Of a DNA stretch of 64,000 nucleotides, positions 5,609 to 26,403 are shown in pieces. Both the position numbers and the translations under genes were made by a program. This DNA comes from Stachybotrys elegans. Lineage: Eukaryota > Ascomycota > Sordariomycetes > Hypocreales > Stachybotryaceae. Numbering within the stretch: the first letter of the stretch is position 1; each line of letters starts with the position of its first letter. A model generated the notes under the pieces. The model worked only from the letters and a program-made list of their open reading frames with translations. It was not told where the DNA came from and did no database searches. Location: assembly GCA_020746835.1 (NCBI GenBank), contig JAGPNK010000005.1, positions 62,001 to 126,000 of the forward strand, written 5' to 3'.

Positions 5609-8600
5609 TCATGGAGCTCGAAGCTTGAACAACTTACTATGGTCGTATACCACTTCCTTCAGATTCTTGTCATTCTGGTTGATCATAAAGCTCTTCAACG
5701 TCACCTTGACAGTGTACTCCTTGCCCTTCGGCACGTCCCACGGATACACATGGGCCATGGGCAGCAGGAAGCTAGCATCAGGTGTATCTTTGAGGTGAAC
5801 CCCCCATTTCGACCGGGGGACAATAGACATATACAGCAAGTTCGCGTCCAGGTCCCATTTCTGAATGAGCACGTTGTAGCGTAGGTTCGACAGCATAACC
5901 GGCTGGGGACCGTCCACGCCGTCGCTTCGAAGTAGAGCACGAGGAGTGATGTAGTTGTCGGGCGGGATGGGGTTTTTGACCTTGTCTGGGTCGCCGATCT
6001 TGATTTCCAGATCCCAGCGCATGATTCGCATGGGCCATGTGCTGGGAAGGGTCTTTGGGTCACGAAGGATGCTGAACACCAGGTCGATGGGACGATCATT
6101 GTTGCAGGGGATAAACCCGGCATCTTTTCCACCGATCGGAAAGACCCCAAAGGTGAATTCAGGCTGGGCGGTTGGTTGAATTGGGTCTTGGAGACTGGCG
6201 GTGATCCCGATACTGCTGTCCAAGTCTGGTGTTTCTCCAATCAAGGCATAACCATCTTCGGTATTCTTGATTCCAGCTGTGACGGGAGGTTCGAATTTGA
6301 ACGAAGTCGGCTCGGCGACCTCCAAGCGTGTCGCAGAGAATCTCCGTAGCTTTGAGACTGTGGAAGCATTTGGGAAGAGCTTCTTGGTCTGGAATTTCTC
6401 GGTGGGAAAGGGAGGTGGGTAGAATTGAAAGATCCGTGGTTCATGCAAGATCATCCACGAATCCAGCTCCTCACGAGTCGCCTCTTGCGGCAGCTTAGGC
6501 TTTTCAGCCGTCACGCTGAGCGTATAAATAGGCTCATTCAACTGCAGCGAGAAAACTGCAGACGTAGGGCATGGGGCCTTGTACTCTTCTGGCATTTGCT
6601 GCTTCAAGTTGTCGTGGGTGAATCGCGCATATTCCTCAATCCTCAAAGTGCGAGCGTCCCAGTCGAACAGCTTGTCTGTTGGGAGCGGGTTCTTTGGCAG
6701 ATCCAAAAGAACCTTCCTCTTCTCTGGATCAGACTCGGGAAGTGGTGCGTCGGCGCCTGTAGCATAGATTCGCTTGCATTGGAGCTTGACTTCTGTCTCG
6801 GTGAGCCCGAAAGCAGCGATGAAAGTCTGTTGGTGGGCAGGGAGAGTAAAGGTGATGCCGCTGAGATTGGGTGGCTCTCGATCCATCAGAACCAGCATCA
6901 TGTCCGGCCCAAGTCGTCGCTGCACAAGGATGGGAGCCTTTGGCTTAACTTTGTCCCAGTCTTCGTTGGAGTGTACGCTTTCCTTGCTAAATTCTGCCTT
7001 CACAGCAAGATCAGGGAATTGCACCAGGAGCTTGGATCGGAGTATAAAACCATAGGCTGGGTTCTGTTGGCAATAGTCGTCTATGGTTGGGTGTCTGAAG
7101 TACTGCGTAAGAGCAGCCTTCAACGAACTTCTGCAGTAATCTTCCTCGGGGCTAGAAGCCAGATGATTTGCAAGACTAAGAGCGCCATCGATGAGGGCGT
7201 CCATCCAGTTGAAGTCAACGTGAAAGAATCGCAGGGTTTCCTCTGGCACATATGTAGGGTCAGGAAGATAATAGTGCGCAGGAATACCAGACAGGTGTAA
7301 TCTGTCCAACACCCATTCCTGGATGACGGCGTAATCAGTGTTGCTCGGGATGGTATGGTAGTTGTAAGGGCCTTTCCCATCCGGTGTGTCGGCGTTGTCG
7401 AGCATATGAAACAGTGCATGCTCAGGCATCTGGGGGTAGATGTGTTCGGAGAGAAGGCTCATTAAGTCGTCACCCGGCCCTTGCTCTACGCAGGTGGCGG
7501 AGCTTCCCTGTTGAGTAGCGGATTGTGGTGGAAGCAGCGGATCACGTCTTCTCCACCGGTTCGTTGAAAAGGCCGTCCCCTTCTGATGGACGGTATCATT
7601 AATACCATTCAAAGCCTTGACGATGTCCACCATATCCGACTTCAGCTCCTTTTTGGGCGCATAGCTGATGTGAGGATTCTGATCCGAAAATACGGACAGT
7701 CGCGTCTTGACGGGTGAGGCACCATCCTCGGTCGAAAACAAAGGGGATCTCAGGGCTTCAACTTTCTTTTGCCTTTCCTTCTCTAGCGCTTCTCGATGAA
7801 CCAACATACGAAGCCTGGAGAGTGCTGCCGTGAAGGCCGGATCAGCCATGGCGAGGGTTTTCCCAAGCTGCCAGGCGGATGCGTAGGATATATCCATCAT
7901 TCCAAGATTTGGATCGAGGATCTGCAGGTCTGTCCCAAAGTTGGACTGGAAAGACACCTTCTCATGTAGTGGATAAGGAACGCGTGTGGGAGTTAGGGGA
8001 CCTCGATACATGGCAGCTGTTTGTTCTCCCGTGATGACGCGATGGCGGACGAGGTTGTACCCGTCTTTCTGCCTCTTGGTGACCAATTCCTCCACCGTAG
8101 GCTTGGAGGGAGCGTCCTTTGCCTTGGGGTTATTATCCTTGTCCATGTCGGTTCTCAGGACGGCCAGGCCCTTGCCTTCACTGCCTAGGTACTGCAACAT
8201 GCTAACAACATCTGGAGCACCAGGCGGCAAGGCGGTATATGTCCAGCTGAACAGACTTGTCATCAACACGTGCTTCTTGCCATTTATGACTCCAACATCT
8301 GTCCCGTCAATCCCTTGCAGGGAAACAAGGTGAGCCAAGACTGGCGTAGGAACCTGCACGTTGGTTGGGCCCAAGCGATGAGAAATAATGACGCTTAGTG
8401 TCTGCGTCCCCGCCAGTTTGGGGTCATGATCATTGTCAGCTACAATACCAGCTGACAAGGTCCCTTCCGTCGGGACAGTTCGAACGTGAGACATGAACCT
8501 ATACGGCTCAACATCAAACGTGGTGTGATTTGCCTTTGGAGGAAACAGTTTCTTGAACACATCTGTCTTGACAGGGATAAGGCTGGTCTTGGTCTTTGCT

Positions 8601-9232
8601 TGGATATCCGGAAGCAAGGGATCTGGAATGATGTTTACCAGCCCTTCGGCTTTGATGCCGCCAATTTGGTCAACCGTGACGTCCCAGCTTAGCGTTTCAT
8701 TGATACTCGCGCCGGCCGCAGAAAAGTAGTCTTTTCTGTCAGCTTCTTCGAGCTCCAACTCATCTGCTGAAAAGACTATGAGGGCAAACCACGGAATAGA
8801 GTTGTTTTTGTCTGTAGTCTGCTCGCTGACGCTTCTCACCCATGGAAGTTGGGCATCTCGAAGAACCATGTGCGGCAGCGTTCGGAAAGATGGCGCCACC
8901 TGGCCGCTGGCGGGAAACACGGACAAAACCACAGCAGCTTCTTGGTCGCTTGCATTGGTGGTCTCGCTGTCTCCGTTGCTGGCCGCTGAAAGGGCCCATT
9001 CAGGCGCGAGAACTTCAATCTTCCGTTTGGCAGGCTCTGCATTCTTGGGAGGATCCTTTGTCGGGGTCGTGATGGTCTGGTCAATAGCCAAGGAGTATTC
9101 TCCTGCCGGGAGAGAAGGGAGGTAGTAGGATGAGAATCTTGCTTCACCCGGAGCCAGAGCTGGCGATGTGCCACGGAGGAGATGTCTCTCGTGACGTAGA
9201 GTAATGTGGCGATAATGGCCTTGAAGCGACAT
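5609..9232 (-). CDS. Giant protein A of the island (1207 aa), bacterial-like, unknown function
   Basis: An intronless 1207-residue protein. The start at 9232 (context GTCAACATGTC) was chosen because it has A at -3 and is followed directly by a recognisable block; the frame is open to about 9400 but the extra 50 residues are AT-rich and look like leader. Blocks seen: R-F-S-S-Y-Y-L-P-S-L-P-A-G-E-Y (residues about 33-46), P-W-F-A-L-I-V-F-S-A-D-E-L-E, L-A-H-L-V-S-L-Q-G (about 299), F-F-H-V-D-F-N-W-M-D-A-L-I-D-G-A-L-S (about 680), G-F-I-L-R-S-K-L-L-V-Q-F-P-D-L-A-V-K-A (about 730) and R-R-L-G-P-D-M-M-L-V-L-M-D. From memory these blocks occur in very large uncharacterised bacterial proteins (G-F-L-L-R-S...W-P-G-L-x-V type). 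There is no signal peptide or membrane segment, so it is probably cytosolic. It diverges from giant protein B across a 975-bp gap. Function is unknown; the bacterial resemblance is recalled, not searched. Confidence 0.8.
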   Translation of the reverse strand: MSLQGHYRHITLRHERHLLRGTSPALAPGEARFSSYYLPSLPAGEYSLAIDQTITTPTKDPPKNAEPAKRKIEVLAPEWALSAASNGDSETTNASDQEAAVVLSVFPASGQVAPSFRTLPHMVLRDAQLPWVRSVSEQTTDKNNSIPWFALIVFSADELELEEADRKDYFSAAGASINETLSWDVTVDQIGGIKAEGLVNIIPDPLLPDIQAKTKTSLIPVKTDVFKKLFPPKANHTTFDVEPYRFMSHVRTVPTEGTLSAGIVADNDHDPKLAGTQTLSVIISHRLGPTNVQVPTPVLAHLVSLQGIDGTDVGVINGKKHVLMTSLFSWTYTALPPGAPDVVSMLQYLGSEGKGLAVLRTDMDKDNNPKAKDAPSKPTVEELVTKRQKDGYNLVRHRVITGEQTAAMYRGPLTPTRVPYPLHEKVSFQSNFGTDLQILDPNLGMMDISYASAWQLGKTLAMADPAFTAALSRLRMLVHREALEKERQKKVEALRSPLFSTEDGASPVKTRLSVFSDQNPHISYAPKKELKSDMVDIVKALNGINDTVHQKGTAFSTNRWRRRDPLLPPQSATQQGSSATCVEQGPGDDLMSLLSEHIYPQMPEHALFHMLDNADTPDGKGPYNYHTIPSNTDYAVIQEWVLDRLHLSGIPAHYYLPDPTYVPEETLRFFHVDFNWMDALIDGALSLANHLASSPEEDYCRSSLKAALTQYFRHPTIDDYCQQNPAYGFILRSKLLVQFPDLAVKAEFSKESVHSNEDWDKVKPKAPILVQRRLGPDMMLVLMDREPPNLSGITFTLPAHQQTFIAAFGLTETEVKLQCKRIYATGADAPLPESDPEKRKVLLDLPKNPLPTDKLFDWDARTLRIEEYARFTHDNLKQQMPEEYKAPCPTSAVFSLQLNEPIYTLSVTAEKPKLPQEATREELDSWMILHEPRIFQFYPPPFPTEKFQTKKLFPNASTVSKLRRFSATRLEVAEPTSFKFEPPVTAGIKNTEDGYALIGETPDLDSSIGITASLQDPIQPTAQPEFTFGVFPIGGKDAGFIPCNNDRPIDLVFSILRDPKTLPSTWPMRIMRWDLEIKIGDPDKVKNPIPPDNYITPRALLRSDGVDGPQPVMLSNLRYNVLIQKWDLDANLLYMSIVPRSKWGVHLKDTPDASFLLPMAHVYPWDVPKGKEYTVKVTLKSFMINQNDKNLKEVVYDHSKLFKLRAP

Positions 9233-10207
9233 GTTGACCGAATCTGTCTTAGACTCGAGCTGAATATGCTGGAAACCCGAGTAAAGATTGAATATGAATC
9301 GTTTTTCTTGAGAAAGACACCGCACCAACAATAGATTCGTGAAGATATGTAGCGTCCAATTGCCAAATTGGTGAGGCAGTTTGATCAACATAACTGACAC
9401 TAGATGTTGACGAGTTGGGTACTGGACTAGGCCTCAACTGAAAAGCAACACTTGCAATGGCGTCTTGGTAGTGAAAGGGTGCAGGCCAACCTCTTTGACA
9501 AACTGGGAGCTATCGGCGATGGCACACGTCCCAGCCAGCCACACACAACTAATGCCACGCCCTGCTGTTTTTGGTCCAGACCCTCGGCTTGGGGCAGCTA
9601 ATGCCACGCCCTGTGGATCGCCGTTTCCGAGCTGATCAACCCATGTTCTGGCCGTCAATAGTGAAATCTGCTTGACCAATAACCATCTGCATCGTATCTA
9701 ATACCTTCTATCGCTGAGACAGGTAAAAGATGGTGTGCAGCCCACAGGCGTTCGACAGCCACCAAGTCTGTTGTTGGTGATAACTTGCAGTATGGGCGTC
9801 CGAATGATCAATTGGGGTTTCAGCTGATGCACGCACTATTGATTTCTGACTTGCATGACCAAGGCCAGGGACTAGCTTCGCTTCCTCCGCGATGGAGCAA
9901 GCAGAGTCTATGTGTGAGCCATGATCCCTGTTGGAGCCGGAACCCAAAACCTGGGTCTAGGCTATCCGAAAAGGCCGTTGTACTTTGCCGTGCTTGCTGC
10001 GAGTGATTCTAGTCATACTCAGTACACATGCAGGTGGACAGCTCTAAGAGAATTCAAGAACATGATTTTGAGTGTCTCCCAATCTTCCTATTGATCTGAT
10101 AACAACTGTTCATTTGTTCACGAACCTTCCCGCTCAGCCATCACCAATTGACGGCCGCATTGTCCACGTAGTCATCAAGATTAAGCTGCCCGAGAGCTCG
10201 CTTCACC
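9233..10207. promoter_or_regulatory. Divergent promoter region between giant genes A and B
   Basis: The 975 bp between the divergent start codons at 9232 (minus) and 10208 (plus) must hold both promoters. It contains a 16-bp exact direct repeat, CTAATGCCACGCCCTG, at 9549-9564 and 9598-9613, spaced 49 bp start to start, roughly midway. Such a pair could be a regulator binding site shared by both genes, but nothing identifies the regulator. No convincing coding frame lies here. Confidence 0.5.
9549..9613. repeat. Two copies of a 16-bp direct repeat in the divergent promoter
   Basis: CTAATGCCACGCCCTG occurs at 9549-9564 and again at 9598-9613. The intervening 33 bp is unrelated. The position in a shared promoter suggests a cis element, but a chance short duplication cannot be excluded. 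Confidence 0.6.
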
Positions 10208-13200
10208 ATGTCGACAGACCAGAACGTACTTATTCCTATCAAACTGGATGCTTTCATCCTCAACGATCCTGTCTGTGACGGTGGTCCTCTGAAAGCCAAG
10301 ATCGCGCCAATCACGCAGCCAAACTACACTTTTCTGCGTCTTGACACCTCCTACCTTCAACCCGACATTAGCTACAATGTCGACCTCCACAGCGTCTCGG
10401 GCGCTGACGTGAACTCTCGTATAACGGACCTCGGAACTGGGAAACGTCGTGAGAACCGCCGAGGCGTATACCTCCATTGGACGATTCCGCGTATCTATCG
10501 AAGTGGCGTGGCCGATGCGGAGAAGGAGAATGCAGCGACGGAATCTTTGCCAAACTTTCCCGAGGCGCCCTCACGATGGCTCGTCGTGAGGCAGATTGAG
10601 GACATGAGCAAGGTCGAGCCCGCAGCGGCAAGATCGGCCTTGGAGCCTTTGACGGCCTGGGTTGTGGAGAGCGATCGATGTAGAACCATCGATGGCCCCA
10701 GAACCAGTACAGGACAGCACAAAGAGCCTATCAACATCTTGCCTGATGACACAGACTTGCAAGTAGATGTTGCTCCGTTTGTGGATGCCAATTCCACGAA
10801 TGCAGAGGGGAGTGTTATCGAGAAACAGGCCGAGATCTTCATTGGTGAAAAGATCTTGGCACCAGACTGGACGGAGACAGCAGTAGAAGGCCAGAAAGAT
10901 CCGAAGAAGAGAGTCGACATCCGTCTCATGGGATCCTCGAACGAGCTCTTCCCAGATTTCCAGCTTCATTGCTCCAACGTCTTTTCTATCATCGACAATT
11001 TTGGTTATGGGAAGGACAAGATGACAAACAAGCCTCTGTATGCCACAGCTGTTAAAGCGAGCTATTCAGTTATTGGGTGGAACTCGATGGCAGCCGATGA
11101 CATCGTCAAGCTTGGACTGGCAGACAAACAAACGAACACATACAAAACACGACAAGGTCGATTTAATGAGCTGAACATGCACATTAAAGGTTTCCAAGAC
11201 CAAGCTGATCCCATGGCGTCCTATCCCACAGAAATCGTGGATTGGTTCCGAAAAACGGATGGCAATCAGATCCCTACGAGAAGTGTCTGCCACGGGGCGA
11301 TGTATGGTGTCTCATGGGATCTGAACTCCGCCCCCAAGAATATTCTCGCGGACAGGTTCGCCAAGGTCCTAGCCGAAGCTCAACCAGTAGCTATCGGGAC
11401 AACGCCCATGGACGCCATCATGGCTTACGCAGGTGCCCACGAGGGTATCGAAGGAGGAGAGACAGGCAGGATCGAAGCAGCTTTGAAGCGTCTGGAGGCT
11501 ATTCTACTCAGTCGCGACGATGGCGTCGAGGCTCACATGCAAGCTACTGACTTTCTGTACAACTGGAACTACTCACGTCTTGACGGCGGAGATTGTTTCT
11601 TTGCCGCAGCGAGTGGTGACCAGACGAAGCCACAGCCGGGCCAGGATCCGAAAGAGAGGAAGAAGGAGACTTTGAAGCTCTCGCCCGAGAAACAAGCCAC
11701 GCTGTCTGAGCTCAACAAACAGACTCGATTGAGAGATGCGGCCAAGAGGCGACTGAAAGAACAGCAGTGGAATGCCTTCTCGCTATGGTGGCTCGTGGTA
11801 ACCAAGGCCAAGAAGAACGACGAGACTCGGCAGCGGGTGGAACAACTTGCCAAAAATATCAAGGCGTTGAAGAAATGCATTGATAGCAGCCAGGAGGAAA
11901 TTAACAGATTATTGTCCGGCATCAAGCCATCCGATGCCCTTCCACCGACATCGCCCGCTGACCCCAGCAAGGATGAGGTCAAAGACTTCGAGCCCGGAGT
12001 TTTGGATCCCTTCCAGCAGCAACGTGATCCAACACTACTCGTTGGTGGAATCCAATCGGGCTGGGAAGTAGATTACTTGCTCAAACTACTAGTGCGCCTG
12101 GACTGCCAAGTTGTGAAGCCGGCGGAAGGCGATAGCCCTCTCTGGAAGGCCTTTTTCGACAACTTTGTGGACAAGAAGCTGCCTGAATTTATGCGAGGTA
12201 CTGTCAAGGCACTTCTTCGAGAGTTTGTGACATTGAAAACACGCCACGAGGACGAGGATGATGGTCATCCTGAGCAGCCTAGCATGCTTCGAGAGCAAGG
12301 CCTAATGAATTCGGCTGACTTCAAGCCGTTTGGAGACGACTGGCACTTATACATCAACTCCGAGCCTGAGCGTCCAGCTCTGACCTCCGAGATCCCGCTC
12401 TACCATGACAGGCTTGGCCGATCCTACGACAACGTTGGTAACAAGGACTGTGGTGAGGGCAACGATAAGAGAGACGATCGCGTCCCTGGAGTCTGGAGAG
12501 ACTTGTGGAACGACACGCAGCCGTGGTTTCCACTTTTCCTCGAGTGGGAAGTCGAGTACTTCCATATCAAACACGATGATTGGGATCTCACAAAGTCCAA
12601 GTGCTGGGCAAATGAGGGAGCGAAGCTTCACTACAACATCCCCGAAGGAACCGACTTGGCGAAGACCTACTACAAAACCAAAGACAGACGCCCTTTTGCT
12701 GGTCGCGTCCTGATCCTGCCGCAGCCAGGTTTCACTCTGGAGACGAAGGTCACGCAGCTACTTCAGGATACACTGCCATCCGAGCTCGACAAGATCCTAG
12801 GGTGTGAAGAAAGGAAGTATCTGGTTGAGAACCTCAACAAACTCCAATTCTTGTCGTCGCCGTTGTCAGGGTTCAACAGCCACCTTCAGACGGTGGACCA
12901 AGGCAACCACGTCAAGCCGTCCCTCCGTGATCCCGGCAACGGATCCATCACATTTCTGCCTGAAGCTTATCGGGTCGACGCCGGGTTCAATGGTCCTGCC
13001 ATGGAACTTATGGGTCTCGAAACTGATGTTACCCCGTACGGTGCCATGAAGAAGCCAATTGATGGAGAAGATGGACCGGCCTCCTTCAAGCCAGTCTCTC
13101 ACGGCCAATTCAAGCTGACCAAAGTCAATGTGATTGACAAGTTTGGCCAGGTCATCAACCTTTTGGATACGAGGCCGACGCCTTATGAGCCAAAGCCAGA

Positions 13201-14923
13201 AGACATATCTAGAGCGTGGCCATGCCTCAGCGACTGGTATGCCCCTGGAGCCAAGCCGTCAAGTGCTGGCGGTGACACCAAGCCAATCAAGCTGGTTCCC
13301 AACACAGTCGAGGAGGCTCCCATTTCCAATGACGATAAGCATGAGGCCAAATGCGAATTTGCTCAGGTCCCACCTCAGATCAATCAGCCAGCACGTATAA
13401 ACGCCGCCTGGGTCATTCCTCGTGACCCTGTGAAGGAAAGCATCACAGGCGGCCTATTACCGCACGAATCTGGAGTTATCGGCGAGGATATCCCTACCTC
13501 ACCGCCCGATGCCTCTCCACCCCCTTTCTGGAGAGCAGCTAGTGAATGGGACTCCCCGATCTGGGGCTGGGTGGTGGTTAACTATGCCAATTATGGCCTC
13601 CAATTCTTCCTGCCTTCCGGCGTCTTCTATCGCGAAGTTCGCACGGGAGGCCCTGATGGTGCCATGGAATCTCCGGACTGGCTTCCGTTCACGAAGCCTG
13701 ACGACCCGGAAGATCGTGGAGGCGACGAGGACGGAGGTCCAAAGGCGAAGCAGCTTGCACGTCTCGTTGAGAAAATTGCTTCAAATTCTGGATATCTCAA
13801 GGCATTCATTGCCATGGTCAACTCTGCTACTGTATCCACGGGTACATCAGCACCAAGTGCCTACTCCGAGTTCAAGAGCGCTCTGATTGGCAAGCCATTG
13901 GCTTTGGTGAATATGGGCTTCTCTTTGGAGCTCTCGCAGCCGTCTCTGACCTCTCAGCTGGTCAAAGACGGTAAGGAGGAGAAGCAATTGTACAAGAACC
14001 CGGTCACAAAGACAACGCCTGGGCCGGGTTGCGAGAGGGACGACGTTTACGACGCGCAGTACTACCGCTTCCCTGTCCAATTCGGCGATGTCGAGCGTGG
14101 CTTTGATGGCCTGGTGTGCTACTTCAAGACCAAGCCAGCAGAACAACTTCAGATTGGCGATGCATTGGATTTAAACACCATGTACACGCACTTCGGCCCA
14201 GATGTGCCTTTCTTCCAGTCAGAACTTGCAAAAGTTACTCATCCCTCTGAAGTATGCATCGCAGGATCTGGAAACGAGGATGATCCGTACAACTATATCA
14301 CTACCATCGGACGCGACAACTATCCTAAGCTACCGCCTTATTACATTGACCCATTGGCCGATATCAAGCGGGGACTCAGTCTAAGCCCTACAGACTACGA
14401 GGACTTGACCAACGGCCAACTAGCGGTGTTTGGAGCCATCGTTGATCCTTTCTCCGCAGTTCATGCTTACTCGGGCGTGTTGCCTGTCAAGGAATTGGTC
14501 TTACCTGACTGGACGTGGCAAGGACCAATCCAGCAGATCTCTGCTTTCTTCCACGCAGGCCCGGTGCTAGTCACGTGGGATATTCCCAAGTTTGACCCGG
14601 GCAATCAGTTGACCCAGGGGAAATTGGTCCCCAAGATTGTGGACAAGAAGAAGGGCGAGCATGGAGTGGCTTTGCCGGGAGGGTCTTTGGGACAGTGGAC
14701 TTGGCTGCAGGCTTACATGGACGACGCTCAAGCAAGCAGGTCACCTGGGCAGAATGCATTACTGGGTGGAGGGGAGGAGGAACCGCCTGCTACAGAGCGA
14801 TTAGAAAAGTTCATGCCGGTTGCGGTGGACTTGGTGGACGACATGGCCCATCTGGAGAGGGGTCCGTATACGGCGTTGGAGGGCTACCTGCAGATGGCAT
14901 CTGGAGCGGTTCAGGAGAAGTAG
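10208..14923 (+). CDS. Giant protein B of the island (1571 aa), bacterial-like, unknown function
   Basis: An intronless 1571-residue protein starting at a CACCATGTCG context. The N-terminal part has R-G-V-Y-L-H-W-T-I-P (about residue 86) followed 30 residues later by P-S-R-W-L-V-V-R-Q. From memory, G-x-x-L-H-W-A-L-P-D plus N-R-W-L-V-x-R is a signature of large bacterial proteins of unknown role. Later come a charged coiled-coil-like helix (about 535-575), P-W-F-P-L-F-L-E-W-E-V-E (about 772), an L-S-S-P-L-S-G-F-N block (about 883), N-V-I-D-K-F-G-Q-V-I (about 974), and a C-terminal block rich in W and P (V-L-P-D-W-T-W-Q-G-P). No signal peptide, membrane helix or catalytic motif is evident, so it is probably a structural or scaffold protein. 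It shares the promoter gap with protein A and is followed on the same strand by the 522-aa gene and the MBL giant. The whole frame is open without introns, unusual for a 4.7-kb ascomycete gene. Confidence 0.8.
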   Translation: MSTDQNVLIPIKLDAFILNDPVCDGGPLKAKIAPITQPNYTFLRLDTSYLQPDISYNVDLHSVSGADVNSRITDLGTGKRRENRRGVYLHWTIPRIYRSGVADAEKENAATESLPNFPEAPSRWLVVRQIEDMSKVEPAAARSALEPLTAWVVESDRCRTIDGPRTSTGQHKEPINILPDDTDLQVDVAPFVDANSTNAEGSVIEKQAEIFIGEKILAPDWTETAVEGQKDPKKRVDIRLMGSSNELFPDFQLHCSNVFSIIDNFGYGKDKMTNKPLYATAVKASYSVIGWNSMAADDIVKLGLADKQTNTYKTRQGRFNELNMHIKGFQDQADPMASYPTEIVDWFRKTDGNQIPTRSVCHGAMYGVSWDLNSAPKNILADRFAKVLAEAQPVAIGTTPMDAIMAYAGAHEGIEGGETGRIEAALKRLEAILLSRDDGVEAHMQATDFLYNWNYSRLDGGDCFFAAASGDQTKPQPGQDPKERKKETLKLSPEKQATLSELNKQTRLRDAAKRRLKEQQWNAFSLWWLVVTKAKKNDETRQRVEQLAKNIKALKKCIDSSQEEINRLLSGIKPSDALPPTSPADPSKDEVKDFEPGVLDPFQQQRDPTLLVGGIQSGWEVDYLLKLLVRLDCQVVKPAEGDSPLWKAFFDNFVDKKLPEFMRGTVKALLREFVTLKTRHEDEDDGHPEQPSMLREQGLMNSADFKPFGDDWHLYINSEPERPALTSEIPLYHDRLGRSYDNVGNKDCGEGNDKRDDRVPGVWRDLWNDTQPWFPLFLEWEVEYFHIKHDDWDLTKSKCWANEGAKLHYNIPEGTDLAKTYYKTKDRRPFAGRVLILPQPGFTLETKVTQLLQDTLPSELDKILGCEERKYLVENLNKLQFLSSPLSGFNSHLQTVDQGNHVKPSLRDPGNGSITFLPEAYRVDAGFNGPAMELMGLETDVTPYGAMKKPIDGEDGPASFKPVSHGQFKLTKVNVIDKFGQVINLLDTRPTPYEPKPEDISRAWPCLSDWYAPGAKPSSAGGDTKPIKLVPNTVEEAPISNDDKHEAKCEFAQVPPQINQPARINAAWVIPRDPVKESITGGLLPHESGVIGEDIPTSPPDASPPPFWRAASEWDSPIWGWVVVNYANYGLQFFLPSGVFYREVRTGGPDGAMESPDWLPFTKPDDPEDRGGDEDGGPKAKQLARLVEKIASNSGYLKAFIAMVNSATVSTGTSAPSAYSEFKSALIGKPLALVNMGFSLELSQPSLTSQLVKDGKEEKQLYKNPVTKTTPGPGCERDDVYDAQYYRFPVQFGDVERGFDGLVCYFKTKPAEQLQIGDALDLNTMYTHFGPDVPFFQSELAKVTHPSEVCIAGSGNEDDPYNYITTIGRDNYPKLPPYYIDPLADIKRGLSLSPTDYEDLTNGQLAVFGAIVDPFSAVHAYSGVLPVKELVLPDWTWQGPIQQISAFFHAGPVLVTWDIPKFDPGNQLTQGKLVPKIVDKKKGEHGVALPGGSLGQWTWLQAYMDDAQASRSPGQNALLGGGEEEPPATERLEKFMPVAVDLVDDMAHLERGPYTALEGYLQMASGAVQEK

Positions 14924-15906: not shown

Positions 15907-17650
15907 ATGTCCAGCCAAATAGCCACCAAAGAGCCCAACCAGTCAGCGCTTTTTCCGATCCACAAAGAAGCCCGACTGCAAGAGGCACCGCCCAAGCCCG
16001 AAGAGAAGCAAACATCCAAGCAACCAGACGAGAAAAAAGCCATCATGTCTGCGCAAGATGTGGCCTTCTCCGCTGTTCGCAATCCTGCCAACCGGAATCG
16101 TATCTTCATCTACCGTGTCGCGCCCCAGGATTGCACCTTGAGCTACGAGCAGCGCGCTATCCACAAGGGTGTCTCTGCCCCTCGTTGGAACAAGAATCCT
16201 GGTGATGGTACCGGGGTTCCCTCGACCTTGCTCCGCGCGGAGTCTAACATTGTTACCTTGGTCTTCGACGATGTGGTAAGATGTTTTCTAGGATACGGGT
16301 GATGGCCGTTCGACTGATGTGCTATAATGTAGGTACACATCTACGGAGTGTGCGCGTCGGGCAACCTCCTAAGTCTGCTCAGCCCTTTCGTCGAACCGAT
16401 TGAGCCCAGGGCCGAATGTTGGAAGGGCAAACTAGCTGGGTGTACCTTCGCAGAGCACGATGAGGAGCAGGCCTGGCTGATATACGAGACTAAAGACGGG
16501 TAAGTTCTCTCATCACTTTTGTATTGTTGATCACCCACTGATGGCTACGTCACTTATAGAGATGCCGACGATGCGCCGCCGAAGCTCATGTACTGCGACG
16601 TGACCACCCCCGAGACTCCAGACACTCCTTCGACCGCTGGCGACATCATGTCCAGTACATCTCTGAGTCTTGTCCACGATACTAGGCGCTGCTGGGTCAT
16701 TTATCAGAACAAGAGTGGCCAGCTCGTCGCATATAACGAGAAGGACCAGAAACGTAAGTTTTACTCTGCTAGTCCAATTGCTTCCGGAGGTACTGATCAC
16801 CCCACGCACAGCCAGCGTCATCAGCGCCGACACCTCCCATTTCGAGAGACAGACACCCATCGGAAGCTGCTTCATTCCAGCCAAGAACATTGACGCAACC
16901 CAAGTCCCTGGCTTCCGATGCGATGCTCTCGGTAGACTCATCGTCTACTGGGTCCGTTCATTCAACGGCAAGCCACGTCTGTATCGCTCTCATGCGGATC
17001 TTACGGAGAGGAGCTCCAGCGCTGATTTTAGCGAGCCTCGACAGGCCACTGACAATGGTGTCACCGTGGAGCCTTTGGCGCAGATCAGCGTGATTCCCAA
17101 CCCAGAAACGCAGAGCAACTACCTATTTATCGCAAAGCATGGTGGTGATAACATCTCAAGCGTTACTGACAAGTGGCTCACTAAGAATGAGTCTCTCCAG
17201 GGGCTTGACTTGGCCAGCTCGGAGCTGTTCAAGAGATGGCAGGCCAAAATCCTTGAAGAGGCCCTCCTGGGACGCCGACCTGAAAATGGTCATGGTGGAT
17301 ATCCAGATGGCAGGCTTCCCCACCACCATCATGGCCAGCCTCATCCTCACCTTATTCCCGGGTACTCTAATGGATACACCAATGGCTTGATGGACAAGGT
17401 AGGAGCCAAGATGATGGTAGAGGAGATCATGGAAGATGAGTTGATGGGGAGAAGTGAGAATGGAAGCAGAGACCTCCCTCTTGTCTGGAGGAACAAGGGA
17501 GATGCGACAAAGCCACAACTTCATTCTGGTGTCATTACTCGAACGGCTCGTTCGAAGTGGTCTGAGGCTGAGGTGCAAGTCATGATTCCTGCGGGATCTA
17601 CCATCATGGGAGACATCACGATTCAACTTAAGGTTCGGCCCACCGATTGA
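15907..17650 (+). CDS. 522-aa protein, possibly lectin-like beta-propeller
   Basis: Four exons: 15907-16275, 16333-16499, 16560-16753, 16812-17650, with clean GT-AG introns of 57, 60 and 58 nt and a total of 1569 nt. The protein has a charged, low-complexity N-terminus (about 1-45), then repeated short strand motifs (R-I-F-I-Y-R-V, V-H-I-Y-G-V, A-W-L-I-Y-E-T, K-L-M-Y-C-D-V, C-W-V-I-Y-Q-N, V-Y-W-V-R-S) spaced like blades of a beta-propeller, reminiscent of fungal fucose-specific lectins; this likeness is weak. Residues around 375-420 form a His/Gly/Tyr-rich linker, and the end (I-T-I-Q-L-K-V-R-P-T-D) looks like another strand. No signal peptide. It sits between two giant island genes on the same strand, so it may be a partner, for instance a binding subunit, though that is inference. 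Exon structure is firm; function is uncertain. Confidence 0.75.
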
Positions 17651-18635
17651 TTAATTTCTGCCAAGCGGTTGCGGTACGTCAAAGGCGAGTGATCTTCAGT
17701 ATACGATATCATAGTTTGTAGTGCTATTTTTGTTTTCTGAGAATACATGTTTGCTTCTTGAGAGAGCAATTCTGTAAAACTCCCTGCTAGAGAACGGTCA
17801 TTCGCTAGGGAGAATCATGAATGCCTGCATACAGAAGACACCTTCATCGGCCCACCAGAATAAAGGCAAAGCCTCCAGACTCCAGCTGTGATAGTGCCCT
17901 TCCTAACTCACTTCTGTTTCATAGATCTTACGGCTCCTAATGGGCTGTTCTGGTGTGCTGGGCAGTCTAATTGGTCCAACTTGTCTCCCATCCGATTCCA
18001 TGTGATCACAATTCCTTACCGTTCCAGTCAAAGCTCCGAGCGACCTGAATACTCATTTTCAATAGTCTGTGCGGCTGAGAATAATAGGTCAAGGGTCCAG
18101 AGGACCGGATAGTGGGAAAGAGTATCGCTTGAGCAAGGTAAGCTTATTTCTGCATGATGTACTTGTACTCGTACACCTCGTAAAAGACGGTTGATGGAGG
18201 GGGCGTGTGGAAATGGGCCCTTCAGTCAGCTAGCCACACTCGAAGACCGTAGGATGTAACCAGCTGCCACACTCGCGTATGGTACCAGTACCTCACATCC
18301 ACAATCAGTCCTGGCTTCTGGGGTGGCTGGGCGGTGGTTCCGGCCTCGACTGAAACGGAAAAGAATCGGGGGCTTCTACCCAAACAGTATCCTAGACCTC
18401 CTACATGAGTTCAGCGTGAAGCACGCACGAGCAGTTCTAGGACTGCATGGCCACCAACAGCTTCGAGAGAACTCTTGAATTTTCTTTCCGGTATCCTTAG
18501 CCCAACTGATTGACCTTTTTTTAAAAAAAAAATTTATTTTTTTAAATTTATTTTTTCCATCATCATCTGAAGAACGGTTATTCTCCAAATTGTCCACAGA
18601 CGCTATAGCCTACTGCCTTGTTACTGTTTCCCATC
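17651..18635. other. Intergenic, promoter of the MBL giant
   Basis: About 985 bp without a convincing gene. It contains an A/T homopolymer-rich tract at 18515-18556 close before the ATG at 18636. Nothing else recognisable. Confidence 0.5.
18515..18556. repeat. Poly(T)/poly(A) low-complexity tract
   Basis: Alternating long T and A runs that can fold on themselves, about 80 bp before the start codon of the MBL giant. Poly(dA:dT) tracts in fungal promoters exclude nucleosomes, so it may be a promoter element. It may equally be plain low complexity. Confidence 0.5.
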
Positions 18636-21600
18636 ATGCCCTCAACGGTGAAGGGCTTTCAAGTAGAGTCCTTCCACTTGAATGTGGGAGCAGGCGATGG
18701 AGCCATCCACTTGTTGACTTGCGATCCTGTTGCAAAAGACACTCGTCGGCTCATCGTGCAAGCCTACCTGGTAGATGGCGGCAAGTCAGCAATTTCGGCA
18801 ATGATTGATAGTCTCATCGAGCGGATCGAAACATATTACAACAGCCCGTACAAATACACGAATGGAGACAGCTATCTGAAATTTGACGGCTTCGTCATCA
18901 CGCATTGGGATCACGATCATTATGGCGGGCTCGAAGGGTGGCTTGTAGATCAGATAACGCAAGACACAAGCACGAAGCGATGGTACATCCCTAGAGCTCG
19001 CTACGATGCCAAGACATCAGCTGCACTGAGCTATGCCTACTCGCCAACTGCATGGCCTGCAAAGTCCAGATTTTCTGACAGCAATGGTTTCTTGTGTCGG
19101 GGACAGATGTTGAAGCTAGCAAAGGTGCGAACAGCACACGGTAATCTGCTTGGAAGGAACATATTTCGTCAGCACTCGGAGCCAAACAACTTGGCCAAGC
19201 CATTCACGGCAGAGAACCTGTCGGATTTCCTCAGCTATCCCTCTACAGGCAACCCTATCACTGGCAACCCCATAGAGGTACCAGATATCCCCGGCGACAT
19301 CGGCCTGGCAGTGGAAAATGGAATTGCCCTCCCGGCCATGTATTGCATTGCTGCTGAACGGAAAATAATCGGAGATTCTGTGACCAATTTTACGACTCCA
19401 ACCAATATGTCCAGTCTAGTCTTTATCATCGTGTGGAAGAAGCCGGATTTCCAGCACCGCGTCTCACACTATTTTGCCGGCGATGCCCATACCGCTCTGG
19501 AGAATGCAGTGGCCAGTTGGATAGGCGGAGCCTCGATAACCTCGATTAAGTTGAGCCATCATGGAGCTTCTACTTCGAATCCCCCGGAGAGTTACGCCAA
19601 ATTTGCGCCCAAGAACATCATCGTTTCTGCTGGGGGGCAATATGGTCATCCGAGTAAGTGAATACCAAGTCTTGACCACATGCGTATACATGTAGTTGCG
19701 GCAAAGAATTTATTGTCTACTCTCAAACTAACAGAAATCAGCGTGGCAGGTGGTAGTAGCCATATACCAGTGGTTCCTCTCTGCGCAAAACAGCAAAGGA
19801 GTATTGCGCAAGCCATTCTTGCCTTGCCAATGGCCATACTGGCTGGTAACGACCTACAAGGGCGGCAACAGATTCAGAAAGATCAACAGGGAAGACATCT
19901 TTGGTGGCAAGAAAGTGATCCAGGGGATAACAAGACGACGTGGAGCAAAGAAGACTGTTGGCCAGCTTTTCAGAAAAGTCAATCTTGATCGGAGCAGCAA
20001 AACCGTTCGAATCCGCCTCAAAAATCCATTTACTGCGTATTGGTCGAAGACAGACACCAATGGCAACGAGTTTATTGACATTGATATGTTCATGGATACT
20101 TGCCGCAATATCATGCCAGACATTTCGGCCATTAACACTTGGAAAGTCGGGGAAATTGGCACCATCACCTGCGAGACCGTATCGCTCGGCAAAAATACAA
20201 CCAAGAAAGAGACGGTGTATAAGATGCTTTGCTATGAGGTTTCCTCACGGCCAGATTCAGAGACGGACGGCGAGGCATGGGTTTACGGTCTCGATAAAGC
20301 GAACAAGTGGAAGAGCGCAGCCCTGGAGACAGAGTCTTGTCACTCGTCCTCTTCCTCTTCCAACAGTGACAGGGGAGGAGCCGGTTCAAATTCTCGAGCC
20401 CCGGTGATGGAACAAGATTTTCCTGTCAACTGCTCCACAGCTCTTCTGCTGACCAGAACTAGTGGACGAGTGGGCTATTACGATGAAAATGATGAGGACG
20501 ACACCGATGATGATGATGACGATTACCTCGACCCACCTGGAGCAGTCGATATGCACCCATACAAGGGCCTGGATCAGCCGCGAATTATTGATCTCACAGA
20601 TGGCGTCCCGGATTGGGACGAGATTAAGAAAAGCGACAAGAAAGGTCTAAGTGCTTCCAATCTAGAAGAAGCCACGGAGTCTCCCATGGGGCCTGAGGAG
20701 CAGGTGGATGACGACTGGGACGATCTTGATGATTCGTTATCACTGGCATCACTTGCGTCGCGTCGGGCAAGTTGGGCTAGCAAAGCTGAGGTCCATGCCC
20801 CTACCGAGGTACCTTGGCTACCCATTGTCTCTTTCCAGACGGTTCCTCCTGAGATTCGTGCCTTGGCCGCAAAAGTCTATCTTACTTGTCAAGACGAGAG
20901 AGATCCAAAAACTCCTGTCAAGGTCCCTGCAGGAAGCGAACCATGCGTGCTGCACCCGAAGAACACCCTTCATGGCTTCTTGAACACTCTGCACCTTCAG
21001 GGCATAGGACTTGCCAAAGTGCCTGATGACAAAAACACCACTCCCATCGATACTGAAGACGAGATTTTCCAATGGCTTGCGCGCTTCTCAGGTTGGGAAC
21101 CAGAAAGGACTCCAGTACCCCGCGGGTTCGCTTTTGGAATGCGTAAAGTTCCGGAATGGCCCATCAAGGATCTGGAAAAAACCAGGCTGAATTTTGAGAT
21201 GACAGTGCCGTATCTTACAGGGCCACATCTTCGCTTCAGCACAGACCAAGGGGCGAAGCTCACCTTTTCCCAAACAGACGAGACGGATGTCGGCCAGGTG
21301 AAGAGGGAGGTGACACCAGATGCGTTGGAAAAGCTGCTTGTGAGCCGCAGATCACTAGTGTTTGGGTTGGAGGACCTCACCACCCCATTGCAGACCACTC
21401 TGAGCCAGCTGGCTACCTTTATGAGGGTCGATATGCTCTCGAGCCCTCTGTTGAAGTTCTTGACGGGTGCTGTTGGCTTGACACTGGACACCAAAAAGGA
21501 CTTTCACAATGCTATCTGGTTCCGCCCCTCGATGGACTACGAGACCATTATGCGACTTCAGTTCCATATCGAGACCACTGGCTTCAATAACTGGCTACAT

Positions 21601-24600
21601 ACTCTGAGCCCTTCTCTCAATGTCGACACTCTACGGGTGATAGCACGGAAGAGCGCTCACTGGGTTTGGATGTCTCCCAACGACAAAATGGCCTTCAATT
21701 CCTCCCTCACTTTCCTCTGCCGAATGACCATCTCTCCCACTCTTCAGCTTGAGGGTGCTTTTGCATACTCCCAGGACTCTGTTTCCCTCACATTAACCCT
21801 CAATAATGCCGCTATCAAGAAGAATTCTTCCTCCATAGAAGCCATGTCTGGTCTCGATGGGGCGCTTGGAGATATCATGAAATGGCTTGCCGACAATTTC
21901 AAGGTATCGGGGAAAGAGGAGCTCGACAATGTCCTCGGTAAGGCAACAGACTCTTCCACGGGTGTCATGAGTAAAAGCAGCATAATTCCGAGACGAATCG
22001 AAATCCAGCTTGGACTGGATCCCGATGGCAAGATATCCGAAATCCAAGGCGTCAGCATCGACATTGAAGCTTGTCTGACCATTGGGAGGCCAGCCGCCGC
22101 CATAGCTGAAGAGATGCCAGCTGTCTTTCTCTTTACTCTTGGCTGTAGCGAGACCCTCGGACTTCATCTACGCGGAAGGCTGTGGTCGGTAATTCCCGAC
22201 ACGCCATTCACTCCCTACGACAGGGCGTTGCCCGAATTTGAGGAGTTCGAACATCTGAAACCCATGTCGCCCGTGGATCCCAAGAACCAGCTACGCACCA
22301 TTGATATTGCTCGCCTCCTTTCTGATAAAGAGGGTGAAGTGAAGAATTTCCCTGCTGGCATCCCGAATGAGATCTACCTCTGTGAGCTCCTTCTTTCGCA
22401 GAAAAAGGTGGCATTCTCTGGGGGTATACGGTGCTCCAAATCTCTCGCCGACAAGCCTGGTGGTGGCACCCCGTCACCACCAATACCACCCACCATCTCG
22501 TTGGAGAAGCTAGAAGTTGACGCTTCTTACACTTGGGGGACCAAAAACCCCAACGAAGCAGGGTTCCGGATGAGACTAGGTATATCTATCAGTCTCTACT
22601 TGGGCGGTGAGCTGGAGGCCATAGAGGATGACGAAAAGGACGAGGACGATCTCTATCCTACCTCGACCAAGCTCTTCGGTGAAGTTGCTTACGATCGCGG
22701 CAACTGGACCATTGAAGCTGCTGCGTATGATCTCTCCATCAAGAACCTTCTGCAATTTTGGGATCTCGATGACCGGGGTCCCATGTCTGACTTCCTCGGA
22801 GGAATCGACATTGACTTCATCACTCTCAAGTACGAATTCAACAACGGCAAGTCAGCGACCGGGGCACTGATTGACGATGGCAAGGATGTCAGAGCGCCAA
22901 GTCTGCTAAAGATCGATGGTCAATTCACCTTTGCCGATGTAGCCTCCCTGACGTTCAACTACACCAACGAAGGAGGCGAAGGGTGGGCTTTGACAGCTGG
23001 TCTTGGCCCATCAGAGAAGACCAAGGACAAAGCAACCATCGGCGGCTTGCTGTCCGGGTTCTTGGATACTGCAATGGTCAGCAGCCTTCCACAGGGCATT
23101 CGGGACGCTGCTATCCAGAATGCCGAAGGTAACCAGGCCTTGCGACTGCTGGTGGCTAAGAGACAAGGAGTCTCCGTTTTTGCTCTCCTGGTCCAGATTG
23201 AGAAGGTCAGTGTTTGGTTCATCCAACTTCGCCAGGGACCCAAGGGCACCGTGAAGAGAATCCTCAAGGCTGCTATCAGCAAAATCTCAGTGGACGTATC
23301 TGCCTTTCAGACCACCATCAACAGCCCCTGGGAAGAACTCTTCTTCATGTGGGTTCAAGACAAGACGGTTCCGAAACAGGGCGTTGATGCCTTGACAGGA
23401 ATCTCACAGAAGGAGTTTGCAGCTATGTCAGAGCTGATGAAGGATAAGCTGGGCGTGACAGACGAACAGCTTCTTCTTTTCAAGCCAGCTGCCAGCAAAA
23501 GCCCTGCTCCAACGGCCCAGGACCAGTTATATCGCAGAGCTCCTCCTGCTGGAGGTGATGACGAGGACAAGGACGCAAAGAAGGTCGTCATAGCTGCTGG
23601 AAGTCATTTGGTAATTGTGGCCAAGAAGGACGGAAAGCCAGGTGTCATCCTTGATTATTTGTTTGGGGCCAAGAAGAAGGCTGCTTCTGGGAAGATATAC
23701 GAATCTTCCAACGCCTTGGTTCCTTATGATGCGCCCCCCGCCAAAGGCAAGGGACCCGACGCCAGTGGCTCCGAGAAAGGTGTCAAGGCTCCCTACCAAG
23801 TCAAACTCGGCCCCTTGTCGGTTGGGAACATCGGTCTTTGGTTCAAGGAGGGTATGATCGGTGTGACGCTCGACGCTACCCTCCTCATGGGGACTCTGGG
23901 TCTGTCACTTCTTGGCTTCTCAATCGGAGTTCCATTTGGTGGAGAATACTCTCTGGCCAAGCCTCCACCTCCAAGTGCCATTGATTGGGGTCTTCAGGGC
24001 CTTATCATAGGCATGGACAAGCCACCTCTTACCATTGTGGGAGGGTTCTTGCGTGATACGTCTGACCCCAAGGTCGAAGTCATGTACACAGGTGGACTGA
24101 TTGTCGGCTTCAAGCCCTGGAGCTTCGAGGCCATGGGAGCTTACGCCACTGTCTACAAGACTCAGACTGCATCAGGGGAATGGATCACCACAATTGATAC
24201 CAAGCCTTTGAGCCAATTTTCTCTGCTTTCTCTCCAGGACGATATAGAGGACGCTCAGAGGAATGAGGTTGAAAAGATGGACGGCGAGAAGAGACCCACC
24301 TTCACCTTTTCCTTCATCTATGTCAAGATGCATGGGCCTCTCTTCTCTATCGCATTCGCGGATGTAGCCGGTCTCGTTGGAGGATTTGGCATCAATTCCG
24401 ACATCACTCTCCCCACCGTCGAGCAGGTCATCTCATTTCCCTTTGTGGCTGAGCGAGATTCGCAAGAGGAGTCCCCCGTGCAACGTATGCAGGATCTTAT
24501 GAGGGGATCTTGGTTCCGGCCAGCCGAAGGACTATACTGGGCCGCTGCGGGCGCACGGGTCACAGCTTTTCAGATGCTCGCTGCGAGTGTCGTGCTTGTC

Positions 24601-26403
24601 TTGCAATTCGGCAATGGAAACCTCCTATTTGGCATCTTTGGAGTGGCGACTTGTTGTGTCCCAGCTCTGGAAGCACCTGTCAAGTTTGCGCATGTCGAGC
24701 TGGGCATCGTGTGCACGTTTGACGTGGGCAGTGGTATCTTCAAGTTCGAAGCACAGCTATCCCCCCGGTCATTTGTGTTGGCTCCCCAGTGTCATCTGAC
24801 GGGCGGCATGGCTCTTTTTTCATGGTTCAAGGGTGATAAGAGAGACTCCGACTCCAAGAACCACATTTCAGCTGGGGATTGGGTTTTGACTATTGGAGGA
24901 TACCACAGGGCCTTCTTCCCGCCAAAGCAATACCCTAAGCCACCACGTCTGGGCATCAGCTGGTCATTGAGCACATGCCTGAGCGTCAAGGGAGAGGCAT
25001 ATTTTGCGATTACACCAAAGGTCTGTATGGGAGGTGGAAGAATTCGAGCGGCACTGAGCATAGGTCTTTTATATGCCTGGTTCGATGCTTTCATGGACTT
25101 CTTGATGAACTTTGACCCTTTCTACTTCCAGATGGCAGCTCGTGTGTCTGTCGGCGTACGATTCACACTGGACCTTTGGTTGGTGACTATCCGCATCAAC
25201 GTGGAGATCAGCGCGGGCTTGGACTTGATGGGTCCTCCCTTCGGAGGAGTTGTTCATGTCGACTTCTGGGTCTTTGGGTTCGACATCAAGTTCGGTGCTT
25301 CGCCTCCCCCACCACCTGCTATTGGTTTGGATCGTTTCTTCCAGATCGCCACGAAGGCGGGCTCACCATCTGGGTCCTCTTCCCGAGGACTTCTGATGGA
25401 GGGAGAAACTGGTGATGCACGATCTCGAGCGAAGCCGCAGCCTGATACCGCAGCGATTCTCCTCACCTGTGAGACGGGACTGTTGCCAGCCCTGCAAGAC
25501 ATCAAGGCTGCACCTTCACTGACAGAAGAGGGCAACCCAGAAGACGACAAATGGTACGTCAAGGGTGGTAACTTCTCTCTCAACGCGTCATTCCAAATAC
25601 CAGTCACTGCCGCTCGCCTCACCGAGAAGAGGATGCAAACAATAGGTGACGGAAAGAAGCAAGAAGAAACCAGATACGCCGATTGCGGGATCGAGGACCA
25701 GTACAAGAGTGTCTATGCCAAGCCGATGCAGCTCTATCAACCGCTCACCTCGGTCGTCGCCATTTCCGTAAAAGCACCAGAGCCTCGGAAGAAGAAGACG
25801 CAGGACGTCCATGTCCTGGAGAACTGGGGGGACCAAAAATGGAAACTCACAGCCCAGGTCAAGCCTGTGCAAAGCTCTATCTGGGGACGATATGACAGAA
25901 ACGAAGACCCGAGTCAAGTCAAGGGGCCTATCGAGGGGCTACTGAACGGCAAAGATGCAACCATGCAACTGGTCACGGGCATTAGCATTGTTCCTCCCAA
26001 CCCAGCCGTGGCTGGTGACCTGGTCAACAAGTTCAATGTGACCAAAGATCACAAAAGTTCTGTATTCAATCCCAAGGAGCCCGACTGGCCCTTGTTCATT
26101 GGTGTAACGAAGGATCAGGACACAGCTTGGGCACCAAAGGAGAGAGTCTCTTCAAAAGAGAGAAGCAAGGACTGGGACAAGGTGACGGAAGACTGGGGCA
26201 AGGTCGGAGACGCAACGACGTCGAAAGCAGTAGGTCTATGGGCCAAAAGAATGCGTTATGATGCGGAAAGTGTAGAAGGAGATCAGAAGGACGAGAAGCT
26301 CAAGGGAACTTTTGAGCCTTTGAGAGGAGTTGCACCAAAGAAGCTCTTGAAGAATTTCAAGCAGTTGGTGCCTGCGCTCCCATTAGTGGCTGTTGGGTAC
26401 TAA
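18636..26403 (+). CDS. 2559-aa protein: ComEC-type MBL hydrolase fused to DUF6603-like giant region
   Basis: Two exons, 18636-19653 and 19742-26403, joined by an 88-nt GTAAGT-CAG intron that restores Y-G-H-P-T-W-Q. The start is the first ATG in frame, MPSTVKG. Residues about 10-350 are a metallo-beta-lactamase fold: T-H-W-D-H-D-H-Y-G-G (about 88-97) gives the H-x-D-x-D-H metal motif, I-K-L-S-H-H-G-A-S-T-S (about 305) and the late Y-G-H-P are as in ComEC/Rec2-type MBL domains that act on nucleic acid or phosphodiesters. Then about 2200 residues follow: an acidic D/E run (about 586-600), many beta-rich blocks, and from about 1690 to 2190 a Gly/Phe-rich segment (G-L-V-G-G-F-G-I-N, F-D-P-F-Y-F-Q, D-L-M-G-P-P-F-G-G) that I match from memory to DUF6603. 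No signal peptide. The MBL catalytic residues look intact. Substrate and role are unknown; it lies in the same island as proteins A and B. Confidence 0.82.

Follow-up and report, generated by a model that had tools for sequence, protein, structure and literature searches.

How did an ascomycete come to carry, side by side, three giant and nearly intronless genes with sequence blocks of a bacterial kind, and what might their products do together? This question is raised by a gene cluster in a 64,000-nucleotide stretch of the Stachybotrys elegans genome, here called the window (contig JAGPNK010000005.1, positions 62,001 to 126,000; in our labelling genome G000, contig C45, 62001-126000). The cluster encodes P1 (5609-9232, minus strand), P2 (10208-14923, plus strand), and P4 (18636-26403, plus strand), which combines a metallo-beta-lactamase (MBL) domain with a DUF6603 domain, and a smaller gene, P3, lies between P2 and P4. 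An initial annotation, made from the sequence alone, had proposed that a bacterial gene set moved into a fungus and stayed clustered. Here we describe the bacterial operon to which the three giants correspond and the exchangeable enzyme gene next to it, and we weigh what the whole may do.

The bacterial operon

DUF6603, P1, and P2 form a constant, co-inherited operon core across bacterial phyla. With tblastn, tandem arrays of the three genes were found on plasmids of Streptomyces, Embleya, and Paenibacillus polymyxa. A DUF6603 alignment, used to scan the contigs of genomes, picked up 68 loci from Actinomycetota, Bacillota, Bacteroidota, Pseudomonadota, Acidobacteriota, and Cyanobacteriota, and P1 and P2 were identified in the bacterial loci by profiles grown from the window proteins. 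The complete set of three was present in 65/68 genome loci and 5/8 plasmid loci (70/76 overall). In these 70 complete loci the genes follow each other as DUF6603-P1-P2 on the same strand; the exceptions are L069 and L073, in which P2 comes first. Among the incomplete loci, L027 has P1 and P2 without DUF6603, L051 and L086 have DUF6603 and P2, and L028, L029, and L097 have DUF6603 alone; the match in L097 spans 28 residues and is probably spurious, and in L028 and L029 the open reading frame (ORF) right after DUF6603 is the best, marginal, match to P1 (E values of 4.5e-4 and 0.004). Of 71 loci, 42 show P1 matches spread over at least two ORFs, in many cases a pair of genes that encode about 505 and 310 amino acids. 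L093 has a single ORF that covers DUF6603 together with the initial part of P1.

Because these loci had been picked via DUF6603, we repeated the search starting from P1 in 150 genomes of the Streptomycetaceae, the family of Streptomyces klenkii. DUF6603 was found in 33 genomes, P1 at an E value of at most 0.001 in 27, and a strong P1 match in 20. All 27 strong P1 places (E < 1e-50) are located 554 to 1839 bases downstream of DUF6603 on the same strand. The remaining 14 P1 rows are fragments or weak, and weak rows without a DUF6603 neighbour occur in G164, G131, and G034. Streptomyces klenkii itself (G001, the genome of locus L033) has five DUF6603 places, four of them followed by P1. The pairwise distances of DUF6603, P1, and P2 over 65 loci mirror each other (r of 0.93, 0.93, and 0.96, with none of 500 permutations as high), as expected for genes that are inherited together. 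The bacterial relatives of the giants are indeed neighbours, as the initial annotation had stated, and neither of the outcomes that it had named beforehand as speaking against it, homologues confined to fungi or never found in one bacterial locus, occurred.

The sequence blocks that had been quoted as common to the bacterial giants turned out to be real but not universal. Among 70 bacterial P1 ORFs of more than 430 amino acids, LVSLxG is present in 18, W[YF]RGPL in 35, and the looser pattern L.[AST][GA].Y in 42; among 71 P2 ORFs of more than 900 amino acids, LHWxxP is present in 36 and RWL[VI] in 55. For comparison, 431 further long ORFs from these loci gave counts of 1, 0, 40, 2, and 6. Since L.[AST][GA].Y is found in 40 of these further ORFs, the LPAGEY-like block alone is weak evidence.

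An exchangeable enzyme gene upstream of DUF6603

The position directly 5' of DUF6603 is often occupied by an enzyme gene, which belongs to one of several unrelated kinds. With profiles built from the genes next to DUF6603, four classes were defined among the 76 bacterial loci: MBL (8 loci), EEP nuclease (11), lipase (18), and DUF4135 (5). One of the four is present in 40 of the 68 genome loci and two together in none, and the enzyme lies within 100 nucleotides of the DUF6603 start in 37 of 42 loci, two of the 42 being on plasmids. The Pfam names were checked on representatives alone, which gave Lactamase_B for L041, Exo_endo_phos for L043, L088, and L095 (the last two below the cut-off), Lipase_3 for L052, and DUF4135 for L054. 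Metal-binding or catalytic motifs are retained in the MBL and EEP classes: HHGS is present in 8/8 bacterial MBLs and a strict HxDxDH in 6/8, and both GD.N and SDH occur in all 11 members of the EEP class. On the DUF6603 tree the class changes at least 7 times for 39 bacterial rows, where the least possible number is 3. The MBL of L041 matches ComEC chains at 1.8e-9, and the MBL matches models of the defence nucleases LmuA, RTasMBL, and Avs1a. Other genes also accompany the operon: Ig-like-looking or propeller proteins are encoded downstream of P2, and small collagen-like proteins upstream in 7 loci.

The proteins of the window cluster

The ORFs and a splice model bear out that giants of 1207, 1571, and 2559 residues are clustered with one spliced gene among them. 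P1 and P2 are intronless and divergent, separated by an intergenic region at 9233-10207 according to the ORF coordinates, and P2, P3, and P4 are on the same strand. The stop-to-stop ORF of P1 reaches 9391 (5609-9391, 1260 amino acids); its length of 1207 amino acids is that from an internal ATG and agrees with the listed homologues P0124 (1207) and P0122 (1208). P4 consists of exon 1 (18636-19653), whose last codon is split by the only intron of the gene (19654-19741, 88 nucleotides), and exon 2 (19742-26403), which encodes the remainder of the 2559 residues. Three acceptors were tried for this intron and one alone leaves the frame open. The coding sequence of P1, P2, and P4 amounts to about 16.0 kb with this single intron, so the intron count of the initial annotation held and its length of 15.2 kb did not. 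For P3 we have a putative model of about 476 amino acids (about 16045-17650, plus strand) with introns at 16276-16332, 16500-16559, and 16754-16811; three-intron models alone were tried, and the reading frame is open only if spliced. No family was found for P3, and no ORF of the bacterial loci proved related to it.

No family match was obtained for P1 in Pfam, NCBIfam, or PADLOC; P2 likewise had no match in NCBIfam or PADLOC, and none above the cut-off in Pfam. P4 belongs to the DUF6603 family (PF20248), with a match at 23797-25353 (plus strand) that has an E value of 1.8e-135 and 452.8 bits, against a curated cut-off of 27. Its N-terminal domain, encoded by exon 1, is a ComEC-type MBL with predicted nuclease activity, so that an MBL and DUF6603 are present in one giant, as had been annotated. 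The match to Pfam Lactamase_B is below the Pfam cut-off (E of 0.0011) and that to a solved ComEC structure is weak (E of 0.053); the PADLOC profile of LmuA matches at 5.7e-10, and the motifs THWDHDHYGG, HHGA, and GHPT fit the ComEC-type patterns HxDxDH, HHG[AS], and GHP[ST].

The predicted structure of a bacterial P1 (pLDDT of 85.6) found no fold match in the PDB or among viral structures. The DUF6603 model shows a long antiparallel beta meander with a loose likeness to membrane barrels and usher proteins. No fold could be assigned to it, because the Foldseek rows shown, with ApoB100 among the best, have TM-scores below 0.3 and root-mean-square deviations of 19 to 43 A. The strands of its C-terminal part alternate between hydrophobic and polar residues (10/38 strands at p<=0.05). 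This pattern is weak in the half of the domain nearer the N terminus.

Signal-like starts, scored by a hydrophobicity rule of our own rather than SignalP and in loci with less than 56% GC, were found in 1/48 DUF6603, 0/43 P1, and 0/35 enzyme ORFs, compared to 55/200 flanking ORFs. By this simple rule the export signal expected of an outer-membrane beta-barrel is thus lacking in all but one DUF6603 ORF, and, unlike what is expected of such a barrel, DUF6603 occurs also in Gram-positive bacteria and fungi. The rule was tripped by 24/47 bacterial and 17/118 fungal P2 proteins, and in the four bacterial P2 rows printed this happened within a conserved stretch of the type LxxPxxTDxLLxG. A hydrophobic 19-mer is present in 25/118 fungal P4 proteins. 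The core proteins are apparently soluble, with no recognisable signal peptides.

Distribution and possible transfer in fungi

Fungal database matches numbered 409 for P2, 34 for P1, and 404 for DUF6603; the listings comprised 120, 34, and 120 of them, and 91, 34, and 84 were entered for co-location, counting rows from contigs of identical size as the same contig. Among the rows entered, nine contigs have all three proteins, 28 more have P2 and DUF6603, four have P1 and P2 (that of the window included), and one has P1 and DUF6603; 20 P1 rows are without a partner in these incomplete lists. Adjacent fungal locus tags are seen in ACHAPT_008699/008700/008702 and Q9195_004528/004529/004531. In Fusarium records (P0124, P0143, P0144, P0146, P0196, and P0235), P1 is named 'Tol' and the DUF6603 proteins 'transcriptional activator srcap', names for which we found no support in the window proteins. 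The motif HHG[AS] lies ahead of DUF6603 in 43/121 fungal proteins; it is present in 41/50 of those in which DUF6603 is preceded by over 1150 residues, and in 0/45 proteins of 1500 to 1720 amino acids, so fungi have an MBL-fused class and a class without MBL. A stricter N-terminal pattern with GG fitted only 6/121 and was too strict, and the looser recount was used.

Quick trees without an outgroup were made from 41 fungal (every third) and 71 bacterial rows for DUF6603, 32 (every fourth) and 70 for P2, and 19 (every second) and 67 for P1. The fungal rows fall on one side of one branch with a support of 99 for DUF6603, 100 for P2, and 100 for P1. As the fungal copies sampled group together in all three trees, the entry looks old and single, and because the trees have no outgroup, its direction rests on the much wider spread in bacteria. 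Fungi probably acquired the cluster once from bacteria, long ago. The proposal that a bacterial gene set moved into a fungus and stayed clustered is supported, although the move was not a recent one into S. elegans.

Within fungi, the species relationships are broken alike for all three proteins. Fusarium tricinctum shares more identity with S. elegans than with F. proliferatum in P2 (86.1 versus 78.5%) and P4 (73.9 versus 67.8%), and its P1 is 81.8% identical to that of S. elegans and 73.1% to that of F. pseudocircinatum. In the same way, F. lateritium resembles Cladophialophora more than F. tricinctum in P2 (70.3 versus 62.1%), P1 (66.8 versus 56.6%), and P4 (62.4 versus 49.9%). As a unit, the cluster seems to have passed from fungus to fungus, or there was deep paralogy with losses; either could explain these identities.

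A second cluster and remnants in S. elegans

S. elegans carries a second cluster on contig C34 (651930-679998; L014 and L016), with P1 on the plus strand and P2, an MBL ORF, and a DUF6603 ORF on the minus strand; the last two are probably one spliced gene. The gene order and relative orientation are the same as in the window, P1 and P2 are divergent there too, and their pieces are 27 to 36% identical to the window proteins. P3 was not seen between P2 and the MBL ORF. In the DUF6603 tree the C34 copy, one of those flagged for a long branch, is outside the other fungal rows, and in the P1 and P2 trees the smallest supported set that contains it is all fungi. Within about 10 kb on either side of this cluster there are HET, PNP_UDP_1, and DUF7580 genes and a sub-threshold match to NPHP3_N, which we take to be a setting typical of fungal allorecognition genes. 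Decayed-looking pieces were also found, of DUF6603 on C28 (two pieces, 88427-88785) and of the P2 N-terminus, with stops, on C24 (147516-147953), which suggests birth and death of clusters. Starship cargo is not indicated for the window cluster, as none of 41 DUF3435 matches is on contig C45; one DUF3435 gene lies on C34, about 44 kb from the second cluster. Elsewhere in the window, a 2165-amino-acid stop-to-stop frame (34898-41395, minus strand) presumably has, judged by eye, an SGNH esterase-like start, a subtilase-like part, and then many cysteine-rich repeats.

Possible function of the core and its enzyme

Tentatively, we favour the reading that the core is a cytosolic scaffold with an exchangeable enzyme and most likely a conflict or defence system. 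DUF6603, P1, and P2 would build one large cytosolic complex; such an assembly, which the initial annotation had also considered, is plausible from the operon, the co-inheritance, and the joint ORF of L093. The complex would keep the enzyme inactive, perceive an invader or damage, and then release or activate the enzyme, which would destroy nucleic acids or lipids inside the cell that produced it. The outcome would be a modular defence or cell-suicide system, like other effector-swapping immune systems with an unrelated core, which fungi would have received once from bacteria, kept as a cluster, and handed between lineages. We favour this because three large, apparently soluble proteins combined with one exchangeable enzyme are reminiscent of immune systems that share a small set of interchangeable effectors, and because the MBL matches models of pro-nucleases that are placed upstream of unrelated immune cores. 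We also count for it the patchy spread (DUF6603 in 33 of the 150 Streptomycetaceae), the position of the C34 cluster among HET, PNP_UDP_1, and DUF7580 genes, and the decayed-looking pieces on C28 and C24.

Several observations weigh against a defence function. None of the four enzyme classes was found in 28/68 genome loci, where a further search found no hidden ones, and 13 of the 33 DUF6603-bearing Streptomycetaceae are without a strong P1 match, 6 of them with a weak P1 row within 4 kb and 7 without any. The listed flanks of ten bacterial loci show, by eye, ordinary metabolism and housekeeping and no defence island, and the scanned neighbours of the window cluster include no immune genes. 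No known immune core gene (STAND, SMC-like, HamA/B, or RT) was recognised, as the window P1 and P2 and the L041 DUF6603 protein had no PADLOC match, nor had the lipase, EEP, and DUF4135 proteins tried. No sensor domain was recognised, and the gene after the L041 MBL has no protease domain in Pfam at E<=5. The bacterial MBLs show the ComEC-type motifs only in part, because GHP was found by our own pattern in 0/8, and the likeness to LmuA and Avs1a may just mean a ComEC-type MBL, because there are also matches to solved ComEC chains. By our own pattern, only 5/19 lipase-class ORFs have the lipase elbow G.S.G, so many members of this class may be altered or inactive.

What else might the unit be? 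That the genes are mere neighbours without joint function is strongly disfavoured and highly improbable, as order and association are kept across phyla and in fungi, and the distances are mirrored. We consider it rather unlikely that the core is a lipid-handling or biosynthetic machine, in which the DUF6603 beta sheet would bind lipid and lipase, PLD-like, EEP, and MBL phosphodiesterases would act on it. The 18 lipase-class loci (Lipase_3 by Pfam in the one checked), a PLD-like neighbour in L023, ApoB100 among the best Foldseek rows, and the alternating C-terminal strands are consistent with such a machine. Moreover, an AMP-binding gene lies downstream of P2 in 11 lipase-class loci, which fits biosynthesis better than defence; a twelfth family member, in L092, is found at another place and on the opposite strand. 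The single such gene that was read completely (L102:12750-19709) encodes a 2320-amino-acid AMP-ligase/KS/AT/KR/ACP/TE protein of the polyketide synthase type, and the gene after it presumably resembles an Asp/Asn hydroxylase. However, no fold is assigned by the low Foldseek scores, the N-terminal strands of DUF6603 alternate weakly, ComEC nucleases are the nearest relatives of the fungal MBL, and to our knowledge DUF4135 is not a lipid enzyme.

Equally, the exchange of enzymes is a mark of toxin systems, and DUF6603, P1, and P2 might form a shell or membrane-inserting device that delivers a toxic enzyme to prey or competitors and gets out of the producing cell through lysis or by some other path. 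The beta meander with its loose likeness to membrane barrels and ushers would agree with this, as would a phage-tail-collar/Gp10-type gene between P2 and DUF6603 in the cyanobacterial locus L073 (7348-9378) and baseplate-like genes about 9 kb from the P. polymyxa locus. Such a released particle is nevertheless unlikely: signal-like starts were found in 1/126 DUF6603, P1, and enzyme ORFs, no sheath or baseplate family was seen by eye among the recurrent neighbours, a pattern scan of viral contigs and tblastn of phage records gave no match, and no immunity gene was recognised.

If the conflict or defence reading is taken further, the unit might represent a new class of innate immunity, with a giant beta-sheet core, two large partners, of which one has a fold unmatched among solved structures, and a slot for unrelated killing enzymes, spread across bacterial phyla, taken over by fungi beside NLR/HET genes and moving between species; this broader claim is possible, though less likely than not. 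The DUF6603-P1-P2 unit is new as far as the literature searched shows, as we found no mention there of DUF6603 or PF20248, nor of the operon and the enzyme slot. Three giant families without a described function become one conserved unit, often with a swappable enzyme, and this gives testable handles on a system common to bacteria and Ascomycota. If the conflict reading is true, it would be another route by which fungi gained bacterial conflict machinery.

Comparison with known systems

P4 and the first gene of the bacterial core carry the DUF6603 domain far above the cut-off of its family, for which the Pfam name line describes no function. The MBL of the window shares the HxDxDH, HHGA, and GHPT motifs of the C-terminal nuclease domain of ComEC (PMC8579336); it differs in being fused to DUF6603 in fungi and encoded by a separate gene in bacteria, and there is no ComEC channel. 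With polymorphic toxin systems, as far as the excerpt of PMC3482391 describes them, the operon shares a constant module with exchangeable enzymes. The variable part of those toxins is the C-terminal tip, whereas the enzyme here is a separate 5' gene, and no export signal or immunity gene was seen. In gated MBL-protease modules (Avs1, Lamassu, Hachiman, and DRT) a protease is expected, and at the sequence level no Pfam protease was found in two proteins, the L041 DUF6603 protein (E<=5) and that encoded by exon 2 of the window P4 (E<=1). The closest parallel is with the MBL pro-nuclease modules of AVAST type 1, Lamassu, Hachiman, DRT, and canu: the excerpt of PMC12799240 describes interchangeable ComEC-like MBL pro-nucleases directly upstream of differing, unrelated immune cores, and here too a ComEC-like MBL gene lies just upstream of an unrelated core. 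In our case, however, that core is DUF6603, P1, and P2, and the slot also takes EEP, lipase, and DUF4135 enzymes.

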